From an uncultured Candidatus Melainabacteria bacterium (GTDB lineage: Bacteria; Cyanobacteriota; Vampirovibrionia; Gastranaerophilales; Gastranaerophilaceae): a DNA stretch of 64,000 nt. The notes below the pieces were generated by a model that did not search any database, was not told the origin of the DNA, and saw only the letters and a program-made list of their open reading frames with translations. The position numbers were made by a program, and so were the translations under genes. Shown in pieces: positions 6,907-49,616 of this stretch. Each line of letters begins with the position of its first letter. Positions within the stretch are counted from its first letter, which is position 1. The stretch covers positions 62,001 through 126,000 of the forward strand of contig CATKZI010000002.1 in the NCBI GenBank assembly GCA_949841365.1. Reading direction: 5' to 3'.

Positions 6907-7793
6907 ATGTTAAAAATTAATGCTAAAAATTGCCCCCCCCCCGACAAGCCGCTTTTCGTTTTGATTGTAAGCGGTGTCGTTTATCGCGAGGCGCAGGTTT
7001 GGCATTTACACTTGCAGAAATTTTAATTACTTTAGGTATTATCGGAGTTGTTGCAGCAATTACAATGCCTACACTTATCGGCAATCATCGTGAAAAAGTT
7101 ACGGTCACACGACTAACCCAAACTTACAGCCTGCTTTCTCAAGCAATAGAAAGGATGATTCAGGACCAAAGTGATTTAACTATACAATACTGGGGAGAAA
7201 ATGCAGATGCAAGACGAGCAAAATTTGAAGAACTACTACCTAAATATGTTCAAATTATTAAAACCTGCAAAAAAATGCAAAGAGGATGTATTTCTCCAAC
7301 CGGTTATACCCCGGGAGTTATAGGAGCACCAAGCGGAATTTGGATAGCCGGAAGTTCTGCAATAACAAACAGTTATCTGCTTAAAAATGGTGTGGGAATA
7401 AGAGTAAGCACAGGCGGATATTGCCAGCAAGATACCACTTTAGAAAAAAAAGTTTGCTCAGAATATGATCCATATTGCACAAACAGCAAACCTAGTTTAG
7501 ATTACGGAACATATAACAATAGCTGTATATCTCTGTTTGTAGATATCAACGGACCGGCAGGGCCTAACAAAACCGACATTGATGCTTTTGAATTCATAAT
7601 AGTACAAAACGGTATAGTTCCTGCAGGCTCACCAAAAGAAATTATTTGGACACAAAGATTTGATAGCGGGTGTGCTAAGTTTGAACAAAATGTCAATGGC
7701 AAATGCACGGCATGGGTTATTTATAACAAAAACATGGACTATCTGAAATGCCCGGACAAACTCGGCTGGAACAAAGCATCAAGCTGTAAATAA
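6907..7793 (+). CDS. Type IV pilin-like prepilin, frame broken at a C10 tract (phase-off copy)
   Basis: GGAGGA lies 6 bases before ATG 6907, but from that ATG the frame reads MLKINAKNCPPPDKP and hits a stop near 7024. One more C in the run at 6933-6942 (11 instead of 10) joins it to a long frame that continues PPPRQAAFRF, then GLA-FTLAEILITLGIIGVVAAITMPTLI, the class III cleavage site with Phe1 and Glu5, and a roughly 255-residue pseudopilin ending at 7793. The globular part has about ten cysteines and the DINGPAGPNKTD motif common to such pilins. Cleaved by a PilD-type peptidase and assembled outside the inner membrane by analogy. Phase variation, a real mutation or a homopolymer error are all possible. 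Confidence 0.75.
6933..6942 (+). repeat. C10 homopolymer tract in prepilin leader
   Basis: Ten C residues flanked by AAAAATTG on the left. In such AT-rich DNA a run of this length is strikingly improbable by chance, and the only other runs of at least 10 in the window lie at the same place in the two other prepilin genes. Confidence 0.85.
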
Positions 7794-21283: not shown

Positions 21284-22042
21284 TTAGTAATCCATCTTCC
21301 AGCCGTCATCCATGATTTTGGATAAACAACCACTGCCATAATTTGCATTAGAATCACCGCATGAATCTGCCCATGAGCTAACATACCCTTCGGCAACTTT
21401 ACCGTCACTGTATAAGTCTGCACTAAACAAATCTCTGCCCACAATATTCGGTCCTTGTGAACCATTTACATCTATATACATCCAATATGAACCATGCAAA
21501 GTATACTCTCCATTGCTATAAGAATCACTACCCAAAGTAGAGTCTAAGCATATAGCTGCACCACTTGCCAATGATACACAAGGGTTATTGGCATCTACTC
21601 TAAATCGCCATTTATTAAAAACAGTACCATCTAAATTCTTGTATTCATTTGCAAAACAAGGAGTACGTGAACTTGTACAGGTTTGAACAACTTTAAAATA
21701 CCTTCTCAAAAATTCAAGAGGAGAACTTGTATATGGCGTTTCACTCAATGTAACAGCATGATGCTCCTCAATGGCAGTTTCAACTGCCTGCGAAAGCTCA
21801 GTAACTACTTTTTGCAACTGCGTAACATAAACCTGTCTTTGGTGATTTTTGACCAGTGTCGGCAAGGTCATTGCAGACACTACACCAATAATTCCAAGTG
21901 TAACCAAAACCTCAGCTAATGTAAAACCCAAGCGTGCCGCTTGATCCGCCACATGGGTGCTGGATAAACTTTCAAGAAACGAGGACTTGCTTAAATTGCC
22001 CCCCCCCCCGAAGGTGTTTAATAATGTTTCATGTTCTTTCAT
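21284..22042 (-). CDS. Type IV pilin-like prepilin, in frame through a G11 tract (phase-on copy)
   Basis: 252 residues. Reads MKEHETLLNTF-GGGG-NLSKSSF, then AARLG-FTLAEVLVTLGIIGVVSAMTLPTLV: prepilin cleavage after Gly, Phe1, Glu5, and a hydrophobic helix. The globular part has eight cysteines and the motif DVNGSQGPNIVGRDLF. The leader before FTLAE is about 38 residues, far longer than ordinary prepilin leaders, and contains a run of eleven G (coding strand) at 21999-22009 that must be 11 (or 8, 14) to stay open. Good AGGAG ribosome binding site. Pilus assembly genes are not in this window. Confidence 0.85.
   Translation of the reverse strand: MKEHETLLNTFGGGGNLSKSSFLESLSSTHVADQAARLGFTLAEVLVTLGIIGVVSAMTLPTLVKNHQRQVYVTQLQKVVTELSQAVETAIEEHHAVTLSETPYTSSPLEFLRRYFKVVQTCTSSRTPCFANEYKNLDGTVFNKWRFRVDANNPCVSLASGAAICLDSTLGSDSYSNGEYTLHGSYWMYIDVNGSQGPNIVGRDLFSADLYSDGKVAEGYVSSWADSCGDSNANYGSGCLSKIMDDGWKMDY
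21999..22009 (-). repeat. G11 tract (C11 on plus strand) in prepilin leader
   Basis: Eleven C on the plus strand preceded by AAATTG, the same flank that precedes the C10 tracts at 6933 and 48897, but here the gene runs the other way so the tract codes Gly instead of Pro. Confidence 0.85.
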
Positions 22043-48873: not shown

Positions 48874-49616
48874 ATGGTTATAAAAGCTAAAAATTGCCCC
48901 CCCCCCAACAGGATAGCCACACAACAAGGCTTTTCGCCTTTACGTTAGCTGAAGTTTTAATTACTTTGGGCATTATTGGCGTGGTAGCAGCAATCACCAT
49001 ACCTGCATTAATCCAAAATTATAAAAAACATGTCACTATCAATCAGCTTAAAGCGTCATATTCAATACTTTCGCAAGCTGTTAATTCAGCAAAGCAAGAA
49101 CATGGTGATATCTCAAACTGGGATTTTGAACTTAGTAATACAGATTTTGCAGACAAATATATATTACCGTATTTAAAAATTAGTAAAACAATTTCCGGAC
49201 TTAATGATAAATTTTACTGGCGCATGAATACTCTTGGAACAAAAAATATATTTACCAGCTGGGCTTGGGACGGAGGACAAGGAAATAACGTTACAAAAAA
49301 TCCTATATATATACTTTCTAACGGATCAGCAATAACTATTTCGCATTTTTTTGACTTACAGATGCGTGTAACTATTGATATTAATGCCCGAAAAGCTCCT
49401 AATATGATGGGAATAGATGGTTTTGTTTTTTATTTTGACAAAAAATCCAATCAATTACGACCTGTAGGTTTTGGATACGACAGAAGCACAATGCTAAATG
49501 AAAACAATGGTTATTCTTGTACAAGAAGAGATTCTCCGGATTATTATCAAGGCAGTTGGTGTGCAGCTCTCATAATGCTTGACGGTTGGCAAATAAGTAA
49601 AGACTACCCCTGGTAA
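48874..49616 (+). CDS. Type IV pilin-like prepilin, frame broken at a C10 tract (phase-off copy)
   Basis: The ATG at 48874 has AGAGGA upstream and reads MVIKAKNCPPPNR, then stops at about 48948. With 11 instead of 10 C at 48897-48906 it would read NCPPPQQDSHTTRLFA-FTLAEVLITLGIIGVVAAITIPALI and run on to 49616 as a pilin of about 247 residues. Cleavage would be after Ala, with Phe1 and Glu5. The globular part ends with SCTRRDSPDYYQGSWC and has the DINARKAPNMMGIDGF motif. Leader sequence before the tract (AKNC) is the same as in the 6907 gene. Co-transcribed with lpxA by position. Confidence 0.75.
48897..48906 (+). repeat. C10 homopolymer tract in prepilin leader
   Basis: Ten C preceded by GCTAAAAATTG, the same flank as at 6933. 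One C more would open the pilin frame. Confidence 0.85.

Follow-up and report, generated by a model that had tools for sequence, protein, structure and literature searches.

Prepilin genes with ten-base G/C runs in their leaders, oriented by replication strand, in gut relatives of cyanobacteria: a candidate phase-variable pilin repertoire

Results

Three prepilin genes with homopolymer runs

The window, a 64,000-nucleotide stretch of one contig from a Gastranaerophilales genome, carries three prepilin genes in which a run of G or C lies within the leader peptide:

21284..22042, minus strand: prepilin gene, 252 aa, with a 39-aa leader followed by the FTLAE cleavage/methylation motif; predicted ON
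21926..22042, minus strand: complete leader of this gene, from ATG to cleavage site
21999..22009, minus strand: G11 run in this leader (C11 on the plus strand), Gly-type, its G-run lying on the strand inferred to be leading
6907..7793, plus strand: prepilin gene whose leader is Pro-type (MLKINAKNCPPP...); predicted to be OFF, as 11 C are required
6933..6942, plus strand: C10 run, flanks AAAATTG-C10-GACAAG
48874..49616, plus strand: prepilin gene whose leader is Pro-type (MVIKAKNCPPP...); predicted to be OFF, as 11 C are required
48897..48906, plus strand: C10 run, flanks AAAATTG-C10-AACAGG

The product of 21284..22042 consists of the leader MKEHETLLNTFGGGGNLSKSSFLESLSSTHVADQAARLG, the cleavage site and the mature part FTLAEVLVTLGIIGVVSAMT. 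Its ATG, preceded by a Shine-Dalgarno (SD) sequence, is in frame with FTLAE across the G11 run, which encodes Gly4; the reading frame and run coordinates thus confirm what a preliminary description of this DNA had proposed. The protein carries the cleavage-methylation motif and hydrophobic N-terminal helix of a type IV pilin or pseudopilin, and a profile search placed the TIGR02532 prepilin domain above its cut-off and Pfam N_methyl slightly under (20.7 versus 21.2 bits). The pilins at 6907 and 48874, both with C10, are each one base short of frame, so that the earlier count of two genes off and one on is borne out by the frames at C10, C10 and G11. In a relative of the same genus (G028) the ortholog of the 21284..22042 pilin has a tract-free leader of 9 aa (MRDLLKRNG), and in a further genome (G011) the flanks of the locus align with approximately 8 bases between them, the pilin being absent.

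Runs across the genome and its relatives

The genome from which the window was taken (G000; 1.69 Mb, 19 contigs) holds 50 runs of at least eight C, 48 of them preceded by G, and 48 of the 50 reach 10 bases or more. Approximately 3.3 C/G runs of at least 8 and 0.11 of at least 10 would be expected by chance, and chance or base composition as their source is therefore ruled out (0.11 expected versus 48 found). Runs of 8 or more within reading frames lie far above chance, as in contingency genes. The genome-wide count that the preliminary description had called for yielded 58 FTLAE prepilin matches in all, at least 39 of which (approximately 70% of the matches having a tract) carry a run between an SD-preceded start codon and FTLAE. 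Two further runs (C1:7 and C3:195152) look like pilins truncated at contig ends, seven lie inside longer non-pilin genes (six of these genes are open throughout at C10, and the seventh, at C11, would be so at 10), and the remaining two have no preceding G.

In 116 genomes sampled around G000, most species of the genus have abundant runs, as do some of the family's other genera, and the rest of the order has few. A pattern derived from the flanks retrieved 73 matching stretches in GTDB genomes, mostly labelled Gastranaerophilales; the scattered single matches outside this order look like chance. Prepilins number 9 and 17 in two tract-poor relatives versus 58 and 103 in two tract-rich genomes, and the leaders of tract-poor genomes are known from six short ones. 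G041 and G045, which belong to other genera of the family, have C10/C11 runs whose conserved flanks are of another kind, and many of these lie close to short reading frames for which no link to a pilin was found.

Run length and reading frame

Tract length is exactly 10 in 42/50 cases in G000, 73/77 in G007 and 44/48 in G025, and is more varied among 30 sampled tracts of G028 (19 at 10, 7 at 11). Judged from the frame, 34 of the 39 tract prepilins of G000 are predicted OFF and 5 ON, and over five species of the genus 170/191 tract pilins are OFF and 21 in frame, far below one third (binomial P = 7e-13, a value that treats genes as independent, which they are only in part). Nearly all pilins need 11, and most of the out-of-frame ones need one base more. 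Thus, the idea of a set of switchable pilins is well supported by the census, while these skewed counts suggest a default OFF state for most members and not a free alternation. Frame analysis shows that a one-base change in the run moves the gene in or out of frame, as expected of a contingency gene, and between species of the genus orthologs differ both in on/off state and in leader.

In 16/191 of the spacers between run and FTLAE there is a putative internal start that has an SD-like site (9 being ATG), and many spacers of G025 contain a TATAAT-like box and then an ATG; a minority of 'OFF' genes may therefore be expressed without the tract. The spacers in G007, G025, G018 and G000 also hold further repeated hairpin-like sequences that are read in frame, of which TATAATAGTGATATGAAACATCAC is an example; this sequence is also similar to a -10 box with an internal start after it.

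Orientation of the runs and the sequence around them

Within each contig of G000 the G-preceded runs face one way, with the exception of one switch in C1. The pattern is the same in G007 (two switches), G025 (two) and G028 (one), and among the runs listed for G018 orientation is constant as in G000. By hand count, there are approximately six switches over approximately 195 adjacent pairs in G000, G007, G025 and G028, four species of one genus. GC skew is negative on the C-strand at 37/45, 34/39, 28/34 and 6/7 sampled loci, and in the four switches examined, plus-to-minus changes lie near the cumulative-skew minimum (origin-like) and minus-to-plus changes near the maximum (terminus-like), the 40 kb stretch used for skew at the G000 switch being noisy. 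Taken together, the skew signs and the position of the switches place the G-run on the leading strand. GC skew was used for this purpose because dnaA, considered as an origin marker, lies away from the points where polarity changes in G007 and G025. Skew alone as the cause of the rule was rejected, since its size (approximately 0.03-0.11) would be too small for near-total polarity.

Since it is always the leading strand that carries the G-run, the 'opposite orientation' formerly ascribed to the tract of 21284..22042 is correct relative to its own gene and does not hold on the chromosome, where all three tracts of the window are C on the plus strand. Pilins themselves lie both ways, and four sampled species have 120 Gly-leader (leading-strand) and 47 Pro-leader (head-on) pilins. 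On a tree of 157 mature pilins the leader class changes 31 times versus a shuffled mean of 38 (minimum 30). Leader class is thus almost unrelated to mature-pilin phylogeny, and follows strand far more than ancestry. The rule is weaker or absent in the other genera checked (with exceptions in G041, mixed orientation in G045). Effects of G homopolymers on mutation are known to depend on replication strand (reviewed in PMC10710837), and the dependence of orientation on that strand suggests that the process at work is replication and not transcription.

When sites were scored with a flank profile built from the Gly-leader ones, 81% of the Pro-leader sites and 75% of those remaining fell within the top tenth of the background. 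Read on the G strand, the run is followed by C in 117/120 Gly, 46/47 Pro and 15/16 remaining sites, and preceded by TC in 113/120, 22/47 and 13/16, respectively, where the 16 remaining sites contain some unclassified pilins. Counted from their flanks, eight clear non-pilin sites have C after the run in 8/8 and TC before it in 7/8 cases. A C-G10-C core, commonly TC-G10-CA, is hence common to pilin and non-pilin sites. AGCTT occurs in 54/120 Gly and 31/47 Pro sites (background 1.3%) and in 0/16 sites not classed as pilin. It was consequently rejected as part of a general motif, which is restricted to C-G10-C, often with TC ahead of it and CA behind; at pilin sites it may reflect common descent of the leaders.

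Discussion

We consider it probable that the tracts form a family of contingency loci through which a pilin repertoire, OFF by default, undergoes strand-specific slipped-strand phase variation. In each genome, approximately 40 to 75 prepilin genes have a G10/C10 run within the leader peptide. Slippage during replication, taking a run from 10 (usually OFF) to 11 (ON) or back, would switch the pilins independently of one another, and one cell would show few of many. As the motif suggests, prepilin peptidase would cut the leader off, and the run and surrounding repeats, being located before the cleavage site, would leave the mature pilin unchanged. The run itself behaves as a DNA-level element, defined by the C-G10-C core and the placement of the G-run on the leading strand, with coding following from it: a gene on the leading strand has a Gly leader and a head-on gene a Pro leader. 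Orientation is presumably kept because the replication strand affects how readily the run slips or how stable it is. With the position, lengths and frames of the tracts, their strand rule and their shared core directly observed, phase variation by slippage would explain the facts at gene level; the strand rule, the near-fixed length of 10 and the shared core exceed ordinary phase variation, and the first two are also absent from the preliminary description. Counting against slippage is the near-uniform length of 10, tighter than usual for slipping tracts. The sites, moreover, are not independent, as the leaders of any one genome are linked through common descent or gene conversion. It is conceivable, if unlikely, that a dedicated replication-coupled system recognises the leading-strand C-G10-C and either keeps it at a length of ten or returns it to that length, with every pilin OFF by default and rare one-base excursions to ON.

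Other explanations must account for the same lengths and frames. If the true length were 11 and assemblies under-called it by one, the pilins would simply be in frame, as most of them would be at 11. However, six mid-gene non-pilin tracts of G000 and one of G025 give full-length genes at 10 and at no other length, evidence that the lengths are not miscalled; moreover, a number of pilins called at 11 are in frame, and the NODE-style names of the G025 and G007 records point to short-read assembly, where homopolymer under-calling is unlikely. We thus regard miscalling as highly improbable. A uniform one-base offset is also what would be needed if genes were fixed out of frame and transcriptional polymerase slippage or ribosomal frameshifting restored a constant low product. 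Transcript slippage depends on the RNA strand, yet orientation tracks replication and not gene sense, and mRNAs with G-runs and with C-runs both occur; in addition, some loci are at 11 and in frame, and this reading appears quite unlikely. Lastly, the run and its flanks could make up a small repeat, mobile or recombining, whose insertion is biased by replication strand, on/off states being a by-product. The flank core common to different contexts, the swapping of leaders independently of the mature pilin and the presence of other hairpin-like repeats in leaders would all fit such an element, but it should also fill intergenic DNA, whereas nearly all G-preceded runs are in genes, in frames that matter; we give it little credence.

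SSR contingency genes of Campylobacter jejuni are mainly poly-G surface genes, and we know of no replication-strand rule of this kind in that species. The phase variation proposed here resembles that system as a set of SSR-switched genes, theirs numbering two dozen or so (23 in strain NCTC11168; PMC11868660). In Neisseria, pilC, pglA and lgtA are phase-variable homopolymer genes in which, as would be the case here, G or C runs in the frames of pilus or surface genes give ON/OFF states by slippage (PMC5953494); unlike in those genes, the run here lies in the leaders of pilin subunits, among 40-75 paralogs, is nearly always 10 and one base short, and is oriented by replication strand. The pilE/pilS system with its upstream G4 (PMC3547852) likewise joins a repertoire of pilins to a G-rich element close to the 5' end of the pilin; it feeds one expression locus by gene conversion, while each gene here has its own start, ribosome-binding site and tract. 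The tract pilins differ from silent promoterless cassettes serving one expression locus in having a start codon and an upstream SD-like sequence, and among them no arrangement of silent cassettes was noted.

Literature searches returned no report of this system, nor of phase-variable pilins in these gut relatives of cyanobacteria, and the strand rule is the part for which no published description was found. If true, the repertoire would be among the larger switchable pilin repertoires described, hosted by gut relatives of cyanobacteria, and the strand rule provides a natural experiment in which the effect of replication direction on the mutability of contingency loci can be followed. One and the same DNA element codes for Gly or Pro according to gene strand, and what selection appears to preserve is the orientation of the DNA and not the peptide.

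Outside pilins, the tracts of G000 are nearly all in surface or glycan genes, including glycosyltransferase-like and acyltransferase-like ones, names that were assigned by eye from translations without profile search. An exception to the usual context is a T-preceded C10 at C2:217681, between two recombinase-like reading frames and with no long gene around it. Two long genes (C1:226704 and C1:259565), both in frame at C10, have a prepilin-like FTLAEMM start followed by VAIGS...A-type repeats that, by eye, resemble trimeric autotransporter stalks. Two glycosyltransferase-like genes approximately 950 bases apart (C1:360420 and C1:361367) carry one run each, one being C11 and out of frame, where 10 would restore it, and the other C10 and in frame.
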